Source: Leptodesmis sichuanensis A121 (GTDB taxonomy: Bacteria; Cyanobacteriota; Cyanobacteriia; Leptolyngbyales; Leptolyngbyaceae). From it: DNA of 64,000 nt. The translations under genes were made by a program, and so were the position numbers. Of the stretch, positions 32,048 through 41,352 are shown in pieces. How positions within the stretch are numbered: the first letter of the stretch is position 1; each line of letters opens with the position of its first letter. The notes beneath the pieces were generated by a model, which saw nothing but the letters and a program-made list of their open reading frames with translations, searched no databases and was not told where the DNA came from. The DNA lies in NCBI RefSeq assembly GCF_021379005.1, contig NZ_CP075171.1, positions 744,001 to 808,000 of the forward strand, read 5' to 3'.

Positions 32048-34288
32048 CTACAGCGATCGCTTGACCCTGCCAGCCCGTTTAACCCATGTCTGTGGTCGCA
32101 ACAGACTTCGCAACAGCAATCCCAGCATTTGCAACTCTCCGGGTGCCAATTGTCGCTGCCACTGACCGGGGGTACAAAACAGTAGCTCAACTAGGGCACG
32201 ATACTGCTCAGGAGACAATGGCTCAAATGCCAATTGCATGGTGACCGAGTTAGAGCCTGGTTCAATAGTGACAATCCGGCTGTTGAGAATCAATACCTCC
32301 TGGGGAATATGCAACACCACGGAGTCTCCTGGCAACAGCGAGGTCAATTCTTCCTCTACGTATAGGCTTATTTCAGTCTTGACTTCGGACATCCAATTTG
32401 TCCTGCCCTCAATCAAGCGATCGCCCACATACAACTTAATCGGATAACAACGCTGTAGAGGGTAGTGGATGGAAAGTTTTGGGATATCGAAAAGACTGCG
32501 AATCACTAACCCCAGCACGACCAGATTATATCCACTCCAAACCAGTCCTAACTTGAAAAACTCAAGGGTTTCAGGTTTGAAGAAGGTTTCATTGGGGTGA
32601 AGCAAATGGTAGCTCTGCCACAGAAAGCTTAGGATGGTTAGAATGCTTAGTCCCATCAACGGTGCTGCCAGCTTCCACTGAAACACCACATCAGTAGGGC
32701 TGGCCCCTTTAGGCGTCACCTGAAATCCTCTGGCAAAGGGACGGAATAGGGTTTGCAGCACCGTTGCCGCGATCGGAAAACAGGTTGCCACAGCATAAAT
32801 TTCTTGGGCAAAAGCGGCACTGGCCCGGTGATTAAGCCAGGAAAGCGTTGCTACCTGAGCCACATAAAGCGGCAGGAAGTAGTAGATCCATTCGCGCAAA
32901 GTGCTGGTGAATGGAACAATCCCAAAGAAAATGACCGAGATCGGCAGGATCATAAAGACGATGCGGATCGGGCTATTGAACCACTGAAAAATCCCCTCCA
33001 TGTAAGCAATTCGTTGCCGCCAAGTTAATCCAGGAATAGTTAAAGGATTTTCCTTCACAAAAAAAGCCTGGATGCTGCCCCGGCTCCAGCGCTGTCGTTG
33101 CAGAATCTGGGATGGCATATCTTCCGGCACCAGACCAGCACTGAGATTTTCGTCCAGGTAAACGATCTGATATCCCAGCGCAGCAATCCGAATCCCGGTA
33201 TACAGATCCTCAGAAACACTGCGAGTAACAAATCCACCCGCTTCTGCCAGAACATCGCGCCGTACCACAAACGAACTGCCGTAACAGAGGGCGCTATTCG
33301 CTCCATCCCGAATAAGTTGATAGTGACGGGCAAAGATTTCGTTTTCATGGGGCACCTCTTTTTCAATGCCCAGATTGCAGGCCAGCGGATCGGGATTGTA
33401 GAAGCACTGATGAGTTTGTACCATGCCGATCGTGCGATTCTGGAAAAAACCAACGGTGCGGCTCAGGAAGTTTTTAGTGGGAATAAAGTCAGCATCGAAA
33501 ACCACAATTAGATCGCCGTGAGTTCGGGCGATCGCATAGTTCAAATTTCCAGCTTTGGCATGCCGATTGGAGGGACGAGAGATGTAGTGACAACCCAATT
33601 CTCGTGCCAGTTGTTGAACTTCTGGGCGATCGCCATCATCCAGCAAATAGACCTGCTTGTTGGCATAGTTCATTGCTTGACAACCAATCACCGTGCGCCG
33701 TAGAATCACTACCGGTTCGTTGTAAGTAGGGATCAGTACATCGACCGAGGGCTGAAATAAACCTTCATTGACAGCCACTGCATACTGATCAGCTTCGCGC
33801 CGTCGATCGCGCTCCCGCATCATCAAAAACAACTGCACTGAATAGCCTGTGATCATCACCATTTCCAGGCCAAACAGTACCAGACTGGTTATGCCATTGA
33901 CGGGTGACGAGAAGTTAAGTGTAGCCAGCGATCGCCACAGAACATAGCGCAGAACCAATGCCAGCAGCATTACAACTATTAGCAAGCGTGACCAAGCTCG
34001 TGGTTGAGGTGAGAGCCGGATGAGTGCTTGTGCAATTAGCAGCACAATCAAACAGAGTATCCAGCCCGCACCCTGGGATGAAGCCCGGAGATAGTTCGCG
34101 AATTCCTGATGCCACTCTGCGATTGCAGAAAACCAGGGAACAGCATTTTCTTGGCAGGAGCGAGTTAGCGCGATCGTTCCAAAGCTGATTGCAATACCAA
34201 GTAAGAACAGTCCTAGCCACTGGAATGGAAGTCTGATTCCCCCAGGATAAGATTTAGCTCGTCGAGCGTGATATCGTCTTGTAATCAC
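32048..34288 (-). CDS. Cellulose-synthase-like (BcsA/GT2) membrane glycosyltransferase
   Basis: This is a 746-residue processive family-2 glycosyltransferase with a GTG start. N-terminal membrane helices lie at about 20-40, 78-96 and 103-160. The GT-A domain shows VLIPTYNEP, LLDDGDRPE (about 214), VFDADFIP (about 264), SVSEDLYTG (about 357, where Ser replaces the usual Thr of TED) and the QRQRW acceptor motif (about 398). Four or more C-terminal helices follow, then a PilZ-like domain (about 600-700) that in BcsA binds cyclic-di-GMP; the RxxxR motif is not clear. It probably makes an extracellular beta-glucan. The neighbouring SIS protein hints at an amino-sugar link (inference). Confidence 0.88.
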   Translation of the reverse strand: MITRRYHARRAKSYPGGIRLPFQWLGLFLLGIAISFGTIALTRSCQENAVPWFSAIAEWHQEFANYLRASSQGAGWILCLIVLLIAQALIRLSPQPRAWSRLLIVVMLLALVLRYVLWRSLATLNFSSPVNGITSLVLFGLEMVMITGYSVQLFLMMRERDRRREADQYAVAVNEGLFQPSVDVLIPTYNEPVVILRRTVIGCQAMNYANKQVYLLDDGDRPEVQQLARELGCHYISRPSNRHAKAGNLNYAIARTHGDLIVVFDADFIPTKNFLSRTVGFFQNRTIGMVQTHQCFYNPDPLACNLGIEKEVPHENEIFARHYQLIRDGANSALCYGSSFVVRRDVLAEAGGFVTRSVSEDLYTGIRIAALGYQIVYLDENLSAGLVPEDMPSQILQRQRWSRGSIQAFFVKENPLTIPGLTWRQRIAYMEGIFQWFNSPIRIVFMILPISVIFFGIVPFTSTLREWIYYFLPLYVAQVATLSWLNHRASAAFAQEIYAVATCFPIAATVLQTLFRPFARGFQVTPKGASPTDVVFQWKLAAPLMGLSILTILSFLWQSYHLLHPNETFFKPETLEFFKLGLVWSGYNLVVLGLVIRSLFDIPKLSIHYPLQRCYPIKLYVGDRLIEGRTNWMSEVKTEISLYVEEELTSLLPGDSVVLHIPQEVLILNSRIVTIEPGSNSVTMQLAFEPLSPEQYRALVELLFCTPGQWQRQLAPGELQMLGLLLRSLLRPQTWVKRAGRVKRSL

Positions 34289-34733
34289 CGCAGTTAGCCT
34301 ATTGAAAATTCAGTGGGCAAAAATTTCTGGTCACTTATCACAAGGGAACGTATGGCTTTGTCACTCTTTGACAAATAGCCCTTAGATTTGTGTACACATG
34401 CAAATACGGGTAGGAGACGGTATCAGACGCGAAGGTTTACATATTTTAACAATTCTGGCTAGCAAATAAACGGTCTGAGACAACCTTTGAGAGACCCTAT
34501 CAGAAGATAGGAAGTCTGTCAGTTTTGTTCCCACTTCCAAAAAAGAACCTCAGGAGAATGTTAGAAACTTGATGAGCCGGAACTGTAATTGACTATCAGG
34601 TTAAGAAGCACCATAAAGAAAAATGGCAGAAGGCAGAGGATAGAGGGCTGAAGGAGTATTTTTGCCTTCTTCTACCTTCTGTCTTCTGCCTTCATCAACC
34701 AATGAATTAACCTTCGTTAGCAGTGAATTTGCT
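34289..34733. other. Intergenic region with a large imperfect hairpin
   Basis: 445 bp without a gene. At about 34624-34695, GAAGGCAGA-type repeats face TCTGCCTTC-type repeats across a TATTTTT loop, giving a long imperfect stem between the divergently oriented units. It could be an STRR cluster or a terminator of the kinase gene. Confidence 0.5.
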
Positions 34734-36185
34734 TTACTGTTCCTCAGTTGGCTCTGCCAGACGTGGCAAGGTAATGACATAGCGATATCCTGATTCAGGG
34801 GTACCCTGAATCGTAATTTTGCCTCCGTGAAACTCAGCTAATTGCTGGCTCAGCAGTAGCCCCAGATTTTTCCGAAGGGGTTCATTTGGCATTGCTGCTT
34901 CAGCGGTGGAAGTACTGAGCTTCGTAGCGCTATAGGTTTCATCGACCAACCCAATACTTGCTTGCAAGCATTGATTTGCAAGTTCCTCCTGCTTCATCAC
35001 GGTAGCAGCAGTTCCCACCAGGACTGTCGAATTATAGATTTCGGAGTAGGGAAGCCCTTCTCCTAACCAGGGATGCGATACCCAAATGGATAGATTTAAG
35101 CTGTTTTCTCGACGGGAAACATGCAACCGCACAATACTACCTGCTGTTGAAGTTTGAATCACGCTAAACATCAGGTGATACAGCATTTGCCGCACTTTAT
35201 CTTTATCAATTAGCCAGATCCGCCGCCCCGGTTCAACGGTCAATCGAATTTGCTGTTCTCGGCGTTGGGCTGCCTGCTCCAGGCTTGAAATTGCTTGCTG
35301 GCAAAGCATTTCAATGTCCACAGAGTTAAGATTCAAGCTCTGCTGATCGTCCTTCACTTCAGATAAATGAACAATTTCATTCATCAAAGATAGGAGATAT
35401 TGCCCACTGTTGTGGATGATGTTGAGATATTCCTTCTGTTTACTGGTTAATGGCCCGTAAATTTCTCGGAGCAGGACACTGGCCATCCCCATCACTGAAG
35501 TTAAAGGAGTTCGTAATTCCTGAGTTAAATGTCCGAGTAAATCGACCCTGGTTTGGTCAATGGATGGTAAACAAATAACATTGGGTACTGCAGCAGGAGT
35601 AGGTTCTGGCCGGGAAGCGATCGGCTCTGCTGGTTGAGAACGCTGTTGTTCAAACTCGCTCATGCACCAGCGAGCCATTAATTGTAAAAAGGCAATGTCT
35701 CGGGTGCCAAATTTGCGCGGGGTAACATCCAGAACGGCCAGGGTGCCAATGCAGAACCCCGTAGACATAATTAAAGGGACACCCAGGTAAGCCCGGATGC
35801 CGTACTGATAGACCAGTAGACTGTTGGCGAAAGCTGGATGAGCCAGGGTGTCTTCAATAATTAAGGTTTGCTGGCTATCCACCACATAGGTGCAAAAAGA
35901 ATCCAACCGGGGCAACTGACGAGAGGTTGCCAGGGCATTCATTAATCCCAGAGTCGATAGGCCAACCGCTGATTTAAATCGTTGGCGATCGCTCTCCATT
36001 ACTCCCAAAATACAGATCGGTATCTCTAAAGCTTGAGTGGCAGTTTGGGTAGCTTCTTCAAACACTGGGATACTCTCCATTTGCAGTAGCCCAAGGTCTG
36101 TAATGGCGCTCATGCGCTGCTCTTCTCGTGCTGCAGCGGTCAAGCCATCTAAGCGACAAAATAACCGATTTTCGTGACTGATCAT
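34734..36185 (-). CDS. GAF-domain histidine-kinase homologue lacking key catalytic residues
   Basis: The protein has about 483 residues from ATG 36185 (MISHENRLFCRLDGL); an earlier in-frame codon at 36251 is less typical. After an N-terminal helix (AAAREEQRMSAITDLGLL) comes a GAF domain at about 45-180 with DSFCTYVV and AYLGVPLIMSTGFCIGTLAV. The dimerisation helix reads LTQELRTPLTSVMGM, so the phosphoacceptor His before ELRTPL is Gln. In the ATPase domain the N-box Asn is Ser (HLMFSVIQTS), a DxGxG box is not visible, and only a weak GLG-like LGLLLSQ with FHGGKITIQG remains. It looks like a pseudokinase with a sensing or scaffolding role. Confidence 0.82.
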   Translation of the reverse strand: MISHENRLFCRLDGLTAAAREEQRMSAITDLGLLQMESIPVFEEATQTATQALEIPICILGVMESDRQRFKSAVGLSTLGLMNALATSRQLPRLDSFCTYVVDSQQTLIIEDTLAHPAFANSLLVYQYGIRAYLGVPLIMSTGFCIGTLAVLDVTPRKFGTRDIAFLQLMARWCMSEFEQQRSQPAEPIASRPEPTPAAVPNVICLPSIDQTRVDLLGHLTQELRTPLTSVMGMASVLLREIYGPLTSKQKEYLNIIHNSGQYLLSLMNEIVHLSEVKDDQQSLNLNSVDIEMLCQQAISSLEQAAQRREQQIRLTVEPGRRIWLIDKDKVRQMLYHLMFSVIQTSTAGSIVRLHVSRRENSLNLSIWVSHPWLGEGLPYSEIYNSTVLVGTAATVMKQEELANQCLQASIGLVDETYSATKLSTSTAEAAMPNEPLRKNLGLLLSQQLAEFHGGKITIQGTPESGYRYVITLPRLAEPTEEQ

Positions 36186-36390
36186 ACCGACCCATAACCC
36201 CCGTTTTATCTTCCACCAGAATTCCCGCCCAACTCCTGCAATGAACGGCAAGAAGACAGGGGAGAATACGGAATTTTGCAGGCTGGAATTCAGAAAAACA
36301 GGAAGATTTACGGAACTCGGTGAGCAGAATTAGAGAAAATCTTGGCACCAATTTAAAGTTCAAACTCTAAAATCCAAGATCCAAAAATTT

Positions 36391-37170
36391 TTATACCCAG
36401 GCTGGATGAGCCATCAGAGAGGCCATTACCCGTACTCCTCGCAACTGATTTGAAAGCGGCAAGTGGCCTCTAGGAGCGGTCAGGTTCCAGGTAAATTCCT
36501 GGGGATAGCGTGTCCAATTATTGCCCGTTTTCCAGCCAATTTTAGGCCAGAGTTTGTCCCAATTCTTGCCAACGCTTAACCAAATTTCTCGTTGCACCGA
36601 GAAGCCAAAAAGCCCTTCAGAATGAACCAGCCAGAGAGCATTAATGGTTTGTAAATCAGTGATGGGAAATTGATCGACCTCAGTAAAGTAAACCCATTTG
36701 CGCTGAACGGCTTGTGGCCCTGCCAATTCACACAGCTTCTGTAGAGTCAGTTGATCGGCTGCTTGAAAGTCTTGTTTCGCGAGGAGTTGTTGCAAAGGGC
36801 GGTAGGCGATCGCAGCCTGCGATCGCAACGGCACTACTCCATCTGGAAAATGCGTTTGCAAAAACTCAGCCGATTCTGGTGTATCAGCCGCCAACAGGCT
36901 TTGATAGGCCAACCCAGCAACCAGATTCGGTTTGAGAGGACTGGCAGAGGAATTGGAGGGTGAGTCTGCTAAACCCTGTAACTCTGCCGTTTGCTCTAAT
37001 AAAAACTGCCTCAATACGGCCAATCCTACCTCCCCCTTAGTAGCCAAATCTTTCACCTGTTGTAGTTGATTCTTCTCAGAGGCTGACTTAAGAGTGGTTA
37101 ACAGATCATCTAAATTTGTGGCACCGGATTCAGGCATAGAAGAAGCGGAATGGGTAGAAAAACTATTCAT
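36391..37170 (-). CDS. GUN4-domain protein
   Basis: This 259-residue protein has an N-terminal helical part (residues about 20-130, KGEVGLAVLRQFLLEQTAELQ) and a C-terminal GUN4 domain (about 130-259) with LQQLLAKQDFQAADQLT, INALWLVHSEGLFGFSVQREIW and NWDKLWPKIGWK. GUN4 binds protoporphyrins and stimulates magnesium chelatase in chlorophyll synthesis. Cyanobacteria have several GUN4-domain proteins, and this one has the two-part build of the genuine regulator. It is leftward, 205 bp upstream of the kinase-like gene. Confidence 0.88.
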   Translation of the reverse strand: MNSFSTHSASSMPESGATNLDDLLTTLKSASEKNQLQQVKDLATKGEVGLAVLRQFLLEQTAELQGLADSPSNSSASPLKPNLVAGLAYQSLLAADTPESAEFLQTHFPDGVVPLRSQAAIAYRPLQQLLAKQDFQAADQLTLQKLCELAGPQAVQRKWVYFTEVDQFPITDLQTINALWLVHSEGLFGFSVQREIWLSVGKNWDKLWPKIGWKTGNNWTRYPQEFTWNLTAPRGHLPLSNQLRGVRVMASLMAHPAWV

Positions 37171-37331
37171 TTACAAGCAGATAAAAGGACTTCTGAACGG
37201 GCATGGATCAGTCTAAATTCTACCGTTTACCGTCTGCCACTGCCCTTCTATTTGACTGTCTACGATAGTGTTTCAAATCTGTTGTTTTTGTCTGTAGAGC
37301 CGTTCCGCCGGAACGTCTTTACGAAATACCC

Positions 37332-37850
37332 CTAGCCTGCTACCTGCCGGATCCGCTGAATCAGGCCAGAGGTGGAACTGGGAATTTCAATCTGAATTAG
37401 CTCTACCCGCCCACCATAAGCATGAACAATTTGGGCTTCGGGAAGAGTGTCAATTCGATAGTCCCCACCTTTGACATAAATATCTGGCTGCAGAGCCGCA
37501 ATCAGGCCACTGGCGGTTGTCTCGTCAAACAGCACCACCCCATCCACCGCCTTGAGTGCCGCTAAAACTTCGGCTCGTTGGGCCTCTGGCACGATCGGAC
37601 GTGGTGGCAAACTAGCGGGCTGAGGCTTGATCGTGCGAACGGAGCGATCGCTATTGAGGCCAATCACCAACGTTTTTCCCAGCGCTCTCGCTGCTTTCAA
37701 GTAGCGCACATGACCTGCATGCAGCAAGTCAAAACAGCCGTTGGTAAATACCAGAGGCCGCCAGCGTTCCGGGTGTGTTGCGATCGCCGCCTGCAGTTCC
37801 GCCAACTCATACACCCCTTCAATTCTGTCCTTCACCTGTGAATCACCCAT
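37332..37850 (-). CDS. rfaE2: D-glycero-beta-D-manno-heptose 1-phosphate adenylyltransferase (RfaE2-like)
   Basis: A 172-residue nucleotidyltransferase of the cytidylyltransferase fold. VFTNGCFDLLHAGHVRYLKA holds the HxGH motif, LVIGLNSDRSVRTIKP follows, and PDIYVKGGDYRIDTLPEA is the second conserved block. It activates heptose for lipopolysaccharide core synthesis. The separate (non-fused) form is usual in cyanobacteria. Upstream (37896-37996) lies a block of heptamer repeats. Confidence 0.88.
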   Translation of the reverse strand: MGDSQVKDRIEGVYELAELQAAIATHPERWRPLVFTNGCFDLLHAGHVRYLKAARALGKTLVIGLNSDRSVRTIKPQPASLPPRPIVPEAQRAEVLAALKAVDGVVLFDETTASGLIAALQPDIYVKGGDYRIDTLPEAQIVHAYGGRVELIQIEIPSSTSGLIQRIRQVAG

Positions 37851-40152: not shown

Positions 40153-40728
40153 TTATGCGTTTTCCCCCAAGGAAACATTTTCATAGAGGAGAGCGATCGG
40201 GAAACTAAAATCAATGCTTTCTAACGTGATCACATCTCCGTCGATGTAGGGATAGTACAGCCACAGCCTACCTTCTCCCCGGCGATAACACTCCACACCG
40301 ACTTTCTCCGATTCAATCAAGACATATTCTTGCAAAGTGGGACTGGAGCGGTAATGCGCAAATTTCTCACCTCGATCTTTGGCCTCTGTTCCTGGAGAGA
40401 GGACTTCCACAATCAGCTTCGGGTGACGCAGCAGTTTCCGGGCTGTAAGATCATCTGGATGACAACTGACAACCACATCCGGGTAGTAGTAAGGACTGTT
40501 GCTGTTCACCTCGACTTTGACATCGGCCACATTGATCCGACAGCCCTTGGAGCGAACCTGGGGATAGAGTGCACGGTAAAGGTTGAGAGCAATATCGTTG
40601 TGCGGAATCGTGCCCCCAGTCATCGCCATGACAGTGCCATGAATATATTCATAGCGGAGTTCCTGCAGCGGTTCCCACTCCAGATATTCGGCGATCGTCA
40701 TATTGGGAGGCTGAGGAGTGGCGATCAT
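40153..40728 (-). CDS. Uma2-family putative nuclease (DUF820)
   Basis: 191 residues with the restriction-endonuclease-like core: TIAEYLEWEPLQELRYEYIHG (leading Glu), YYYPDVVVSC (catalytic Asp), KLIVEVLSPGTEAKDRGEK (ExK-like) and LQEYVLIESE. Uma2 proteins are abundant in cyanobacteria and their function is not established. It is followed upstream by another Uma2 gene 36 bp away in the same direction, so the two may form a pair. Confidence 0.88.
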   Translation of the reverse strand: MIATPQPPNMTIAEYLEWEPLQELRYEYIHGTVMAMTGGTIPHNDIALNLYRALYPQVRSKGCRINVADVKVEVNSNSPYYYPDVVVSCHPDDLTARKLLRHPKLIVEVLSPGTEAKDRGEKFAHYRSSPTLQEYVLIESEKVGVECYRRGEGRLWLYYPYIDGDVITLESIDFSFPIALLYENVSLGENA

Positions 40729-40764
40729 AGCGAGGTCAAAGCTTTAGCCATTCAACTACTCAAT

Positions 40765-41352
40765 TCAGGCTGGCTGGAAAATGCTGGCAACTTTGATCTG
40801 GATTTGAGGAAAGACTCCGCAGAAAACGGTGTCGCCTTCAACATATACTTTTTCTTCGTACAGTCCTTCAACCAGGGACAACACGGTGACTTGATGGCGA
40901 TCGGGATCTACAATCCAGTACTCCAAAATCCCCCGTGCTGCGTATTCAGACCGTTTGTAGCGATAATCTCTGGCCTGGTTGGCGGTGCCGGGGGAGACGA
41001 CTTCAACAATGACCAGAGGAGGCGGCATATCCCGTGTAATGGTTCCCCGCGCTTTGCCCTGCAAAGCCGATCGGCACTCTTCGCCCAGAATCATTAGATC
41101 GGGCAATCTTGTTTTAGCCAGTCGTCCGCTGACTTCGATTTCTATCTCTTTGTAGCTAAGTAAGGTATAGGGAAGAACCTTCAGAAATTCCACCAATAAA
41201 TATCTGGCGATGTCACAGTTTTCAAGAGGTTCTGGAGGCACAGCCACTAATTCTCCATCAATTAGCTCATATTTCGTCTCTGTGCCGTCATCATAAGCCA
41301 GATATTCCTCGAAAGTAAAAATTTTAGGTTGGGGCGTGGCAGGCTGATTCAT
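40765..41352 (-). CDS. Uma2-family putative nuclease (DUF820)
   Basis: 195 residues. TFEEYLAYDDGTETKYELID, TRLPDLMILGEE, PLVIVEVVSPGTANQARDYR and ILEYWIVDPDRHQVTV are the family signatures. It is closer in pattern to the copy at 44143-44730 than to the adjacent 40153 copy, which suggests separate arrival rather than recent tandem duplication. Confidence 0.88.
   Translation of the reverse strand: MNQPATPQPKIFTFEEYLAYDDGTETKYELIDGELVAVPPEPLENCDIARYLLVEFLKVLPYTLLSYKEIEIEVSGRLAKTRLPDLMILGEECRSALQGKARGTITRDMPPPLVIVEVVSPGTANQARDYRYKRSEYAARGILEYWIVDPDRHQVTVLSLVEGLYEEKVYVEGDTVFCGVFPQIQIKVASIFQPA

Follow-up and report, generated by a model that had tools for sequence, protein, structure and literature searches.

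Features of the Locus

A gene encoding a putative pseudo-histidine kinase lies on the minus strand at positions 34734–36185 of a 64,000-nt stretch of Leptodesmis sichuanensis A121 DNA (contig NZ_CP075171.1, positions 744,001–808,000; termed the window). The open reading frame starts with an ATG at 36185, ends with a stop codon at 34734–34736 and encodes a 483 amino acid protein with the domain order GAF-DHp-pseudo-CA. The frame is open beyond the ATG (531 aa from stop to stop), and the Met at 36185 is the start that orthologues share in alignment.

The GAF domain (aa positions 41–175, nt 35661–36065, minus strand) is well kept, as an earlier note made from the letters alone had stated; it matches Pfam PF01590 with 55.7 bits, is also seen in the predicted fold, and is the sole input domain found by Pfam. 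The HisKA/DHp domain (aa 213–276, nt 35358–35549, minus strand) scores 54.6 bits with PF00512 (cut-off 26.9). The degenerate HATPase_c/CA domain (aa 285–476, nt 34758–35333, minus strand) scores 23.1 bits, below the cut-off of 26.4, with its predicted fold kept. Pfam scans display no receiver domain in the protein. No NCBIfam family fits: the best match is the HrmK-type hybrid histidine kinase NF038297, with its best stretch at aa positions 215–368, but the 121.4 bits are far under the cut-off of 725 and the window protein is without the catalytic residues.

The 5′ neighbour, 205 bp away, is GUN4 (GUN4_N plus GUN4; nt 36391–37170, minus strand; PF05419 222.7 bits, PF16416 55.8 bits). GUN4 is a regulator of chlorophyll synthesis. 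The next 5′ gene encodes an rfaE2-like nucleotidyltransferase (nt 37332–37850, minus strand; TIGR02199, 185.9 bits, cut-off 181.5). Scanning 34288–37340 for promoters and terminators gave counts of 2 (shuffle mean 4.3) and 4 (mean 3.2); these are not clearly above shuffles and thus provide no transcription-unit evidence in the window.

An imperfect inverted repeat, GAAGGCAG...CTGCCTTC, is found at 34620–34695, 3′ of the pseudokinase gene; a 15-base piece of it occurs once in the window. Positions 40153–41352 hold a tandem pair of open reading frames that by eye are Uma2-type-like.

Loss of the Catalytic Residues

Gln222 (CAG, nt 35520–35522, minus strand) occupies the phosphoacceptor His position in the H-box, which reads LTQELRTPL. 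His337 and Ser341 take the places of the two N-box Asn residues (Ser341, nt 35163–35165, minus strand, is at the second Asn). The sequence SHPWLGEG (aa 370–377, nt 35055–35078, minus strand) stands in place of the G1 box DxGxG and is a conserved motif across the family. Thus the substitution of the His, the loss of the N-box Asn and the missing DxGxG are all as first read; in addition the G2 box is RKNLGL, and GxGLG is absent.

The window protein is the only one with a Gln H-box among the best 30 of 68 HisKA matches in its own genome; 28 of the 29 others display a His H-box and one is unreadable by pattern. The GAF histidine kinases of the same genome have a similar domain order, the closest showing 27% identity over aa positions 116–354. 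Unlike the pseudokinase, they carry the His in those that were read, and the N-box and G-boxes in those that were aligned.

Distribution and Fixation in Cyanobacteria

The gene is present in 39 of 42 genomes of the window's own family (E ≤ 1e-50). A phylum-wide search with an orthologue profile detects it in 78 of 386 cyanobacterial genomes and 53 of 143 genera (E ≤ 1e-70). It is single copy in the 78 carriers, save for one genome where its halves are on two contigs. Carriers among the best 80 of 429 matches include Leptolyngbya, Phormidesmis, Stenomitos, Nostoc, Calothrix, Cylindrospermum and Coleofasciculus. It should be noted that the number of absences among draft genomes is an upper bound, since at least one of them (G027) seems to reflect the contig running out 150 bases past GUN4.

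The family alignment has 114 rows, which are the members with the DHp part; two loci with no DHp (L073b and L113) were left out of the H-box counts and the tree. Residue 222 is Gln in 102 rows, His in 4, Glu in 4, Ile in 2, Met in 1 and Ser in 1, and a check of Gln fixation among orthologues, suggested by the earlier note, thus comes out in favor of a near-fixed Gln. In 80 named loci (the best 80 of 429 matches, with some genomes overlapping the 114 rows) it is Gln in 76, His in 3 and Glu in 1. A sequencing error as the source of Gln222 is ruled out, since Gln is fixed family-wide.

The ATP boxes are lost throughout: DxGxG and GxGLG are each found in 0/114 rows, and an Asn at position 341 in 1/114, vs 7/7 of the aligned own-genome kinases. 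The four His222 rows were considered as revertants to an active kinase and rejected as such; they are scattered on the tree and are not active survivors, because their N, G1 and G2 boxes are all degenerate. The three His-bearing named loci have no DxGxG-type residues at positions 371/372 (HP in 80/80 of the best 80 of 429). A search for orthologues that combine the His with intact boxes, which would have pointed to recent decay in this strain, found none among the 114 rows.

In a quick tree made without column 222, the family is one clade vs seven own-genome kinases (SH-aLRT 100), its deepest branches carry Q222, and the non-Gln exceptions are dispersed. The tree program warns of long branches, and the inner order is unreliable. 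In branches f13, f6 and f20 much of the H-box is lost too. One orthologue, in a Symplocastrum torsivum MAG (L196:7001–8545), has an in-frame stop within the matched stretch, which may represent an assembly error or decay. As judged by these alignments, this is an old, well-preserved cyanobacterial pseudokinase family and its losses are evidently not strain decay.

Selection and Conserved Positions

Ratios of dN/dS were calculated per domain by NG86 over 17 close orthologue pairs. In the DHp domain the ratio is 0.16 or less in 15/17 pairs (of the other two, one is 0.398 at a dS of just 0.05 and the other has no defined value). It is below that of the pseudo-CA domain in 15/16 measurable pairs and below that of the GAF domain in 13/14. 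By these ratios the pseudokinase is subject to purifying selection, most of all in its DHp helices.

The replacement motif at the G1 site reads HP in 106/114 rows and HPWLG in 78/114. Cys145 of the GAF domain (nt 35751–35753, minus strand) is kept in 105/107 family rows, and other residues are found at this site in four aligned matches from own-genome paralogues, two of them from one protein. Cys145 may be a redox or ligand site.

Positions equivalent to the specificity residues of HK853 are conserved at 230, 233, 237 and 256 and vary at 258/259; position 233 is Gly in outgroup kinases as well. The conserved residues point only weakly to one fixed partner.

A GAF-less form is found in seven genomes of family code f11 (L100, L102–L106 and L108), as an open frame of about 297–312 aa adjoining ictB. 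These proteins have a Met start just ahead of the DHp domain and an H-box reading QELLTPL. Of the seven loci, four were examined for GAF remnants 5′ of the gene, and these show none or chance-level matches. Since the protein starts just before the DHp domain, the sensor half was dispensable there, with the dead-kinase half kept.

Predicted Structure and Relation to Known Systems

An AlphaFold2 model, built on 38 sequences, has a mean pLDDT of 75. The GAF and CA cores are well predicted; the segment 377–438, at the ATP lid site, is of low confidence. Prediction of the ATPase domain structure had been proposed as a check, and it shows the DHp-CA fold retained, with Z values of 15–19 to many kinases among solved structures. 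The matches include the active HK853 (Z 19.0), RetS 7n0e (Z 18.8, 3.7 Å over 189) and DivL 4q20 (Z 18.2); since these values are tied, the fold picks no mechanism, and the Foldseek/VIA tables likewise leave pseudokinase and kinase indistinguishable. As regards the bilin-binding GAF class of phytochromes and cyanobacteriochromes, which is marked by a chromophore-binding Cys, the predicted GAF fold matches the PixJ GAF (Z 15.9).

Two known proteins are close parallels. RetS of Pseudomonas aeruginosa also has a degenerate HATPase on a kept DHp-CA fold, with ExxT kept (PMC5992135, excerpt). It inhibits GacS and dephosphorylates the GacS receiver through its HExxT motif, according to the same excerpt. 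However, RetS has the H-box His and receiver domains, whereas the window protein has Gln222, a GAF input and no receiver; and RetS has GacS as a partner, while no GacS-like partner is known for the pseudokinase. In DivL of Caulobacter the phosphoacceptor His is also swapped for a fixed other residue on a kept DHp-CA fold, and its Tyr-substituted, kinase-independent core senses a phosphorylated regulator (PMC4211667, excerpt). DivL differs in having Tyr and PAS domains in contrast to Gln and GAF only. Its ATP site is workable, because autophosphorylation with ATP can be stimulated in a variant that has regained the His (same excerpt), whereas the ATP boxes of the pseudokinase are gone.

A search of open-access PMC literature, judged by titles and the starts of abstracts, yielded no paper recognised as being on this family.

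Gene Neighborhood: GUN4 and ictB

Sixty loci were fetched with up to about 7 kb per side, and sides with less than 1 kb beyond the gene were not counted. The ictB gene (identified by TIGR00947, 627.8 bits vs 366.4) lies directly 3′ of the pseudokinase on the same strand in 30/58 loci and 12/19 family codes. GUN4 is 5′ of it in 22/57 loci and 11/19 family codes. In the named set, which is drawn from the best 80 of 429 matches and is rich in Nostoc, ictB is within 1.5 kb on the 3′ side in 48/74 and GUN4 is 5′ in 17/74. Linkage to ictB is thus no less widespread than linkage to GUN4, which weakens the case for GUN4 being the only or principal partner.

In the genome of the window ictB is remote from the pseudokinase (C1:2326143–2327582), so the IctB link is invisible from the window alone. 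The earlier note had raised a role in tetrapyrrole regulation from the adjacency to GUN4. That adjacency recurs across families and is no strain accident, which supports the idea in part; a tetrapyrrole or carbon role would be read from gene order only.

IctB is a membrane protein; its function is still described as unknown, and it is reportedly not the bicarbonate transporter of its name (PMC9366323, excerpt). Full deletion of ictB was not achieved in the work excerpted from PMC4594306. No paper naming both “ictB” and “gun4” was found in the open-access PMC literature. Among the identified neighbors of the pseudokinase there is no recurring response regulator or active kinase.

Interpretation

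With the catalytic residues lost and the gene kept by selection, the protein falls, on residue and rate evidence, into the class of pseudo-histidine kinases. It retains the DHp-CA fold of an active HisKA kinase but lacks the His, the N-box, DxGxG and GxGLG, and autophosphorylation would be impossible for it. The designation of the gene as a signalling pseudokinase, first made as a probable one, is now well supported by the near-fixed Gln, the family-wide loss of ATP boxes, the kept fold and purifying selection.

It is moderately probable that the protein is a regulatory pseudo-histidine kinase that acts via its DHp surface on a putative two-component partner. The GAF domain would read a cytosolic signal, upon which the DHp four-helix bundle would shift its conformation. 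The putative partner, an active histidine kinase or else a response regulator, would then be bound by the DHp surface and thereby inhibited or titrated, after the fashion of DivL or RetS. The output may concern the GUN4/IctB neighborhood, i.e. chlorophyll supply and whatever IctB does, as suggested by gene order only. In favor of action through the DHp domain is the retention of the DHp-pseudo-CA half in f11 after loss of the GAF domain. Against it, the H-box loss in f13, f6 and f20 is not what a strict response-regulator-docking role would predict, the identified neighbors include no recurrent response regulator or active kinase, and the modelled fold is no more like RetS and DivL than like active kinases.

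An unlikely, but by no means negligible, explanation is that the neighborhood is uninformative, with the pseudokinase as a general regulator whose gene chanced into an old GUN4-ictB string. Twenty genomes were sampled from the 308 without the pseudokinase, and in five of the 20 inspected GUN4 and ictB are same-strand neighbors, directly in three (G074, G086 and G175; loci L269, L270 and L273) and with one unrelated open reading frame between them in two (G095 and G161; L271 and L272). The string is thus independent of the pseudokinase. GUN4-ictB is likely an old pairing into which the pseudokinase fits, because the linkage occurs both with and without it. Family f7 also agrees with an uninformative neighborhood, with GUN4 5′ in 0/12 and yet ictB 3′ in 9/12. 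On the other side, the pseudokinase has repeatedly been retained next to ictB across many families, and in f11 the form without GAF still adjoins ictB in 7/7.

A second explanation, given a rather low probability, is that of a RetS-like transmitter phosphatase: a dead kinase in which Thr226 (His+4) would position a water to dephosphorylate the receiver of a partner, with Gln222 replacing a helpful His. The E/D-x-x-T/N motif (E223 and T226 in the window protein) is kept in 99/114 rows and in 80/80 named loci (the best 80 of 429), and RetS employs the motif despite its degenerate ATPase domain (PMC5992135, excerpt). However, it is lost in 15/114 rows, and loss of the His lowers HisKA phosphatase activity (PMC3510030, excerpt). 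In HisKA proteins T/N is the phosphatase-specific residue and the adjacent acidic residue is needed for kinase, not phosphatase, activity (same excerpt). Here the kinase-specific acidic residue is no less conserved (E/D in 103/110 rows vs T/N in 99/110), so the Thr is not singled out. A phosphatase is thus a weakened and not the preferred explanation, but a possible one, since T/N is the phosphatase-specific residue and the motif is kept in 99/114. The confidences placed in it and in the preferred explanation overlap, as a phosphatase would be a DHp-acting regulator too.

It is likewise improbable that the protein is no longer part of a two-component system and has become an adaptor gated by its GAF domain, with GUN4 or IctB as direct binding partners whose activity or localisation it would set. 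The recurrence of ictB directly 3′ and GUN4 5′ in about equal numbers of family codes (12/19 and 11/19) agrees with this, as do the nearby genes with no recurring regulator, the new conserved motif HPWLG, and three loci (L107, L109 and L117) where the stop codon of the pseudokinase and the start codon of ictB lie no more than about 10 nt apart. Gene order, however, indicates co-expression at most, and ictB is not directly 3′ in 28/58 loci, the window included. Moreover, the sampled genomes lacking the pseudokinase carry ictB in 15/20 and GUN4 in 20/20; thus neither gene needs it. A more specific proposal, and a distinctly more doubtful one, is that of an ATP-independent GAF pseudokinase that would couple GUN4 tetrapyrrole supply to IctB by direct binding, where HPWLG and the fixed Gln would form a new ligand or partner site made from the dead ATP pocket.

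A cryptic kinase with other chemistry, e.g. one using His371 or an unusual nucleotide site, is very improbable: H371-P372 is near-invariant and His355 is present in 108 rows, but the N-box, G1 and G2 are jointly lost, and His371 is at the place of the ATP-binding Asp, off the DHp helix. Recent decay to a pseudogene in this strain, to which the missing catalytic residues and the stop codon in the Symplocastrum orthologue might point, is refuted by the orthologue set, as the same losses are family-wide, dN/dS is well below 1 and nearly all copies are open.

The DHp-acting regulator is placed within a class that is already known. Pseudo-histidine kinases have been described, but a family in which the phosphoacceptor and the ATP site are both lost, the Gln is kept and there is linkage to GUN4/IctB was not encountered in the open-access PMC literature searched. 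HisKA domains without the phosphoacceptor His are rare (0.9%, 722 of 76,471; PMC12632262, excerpt), and the pseudokinase is such a case, orthologous, widespread and in single copy, in which the ATP site is gone as well. It is tied by linkage to IctB, a protein of unknown function. If the direct coupling of GUN4 to IctB were true, the pseudokinase would be the handle on the role of IctB.
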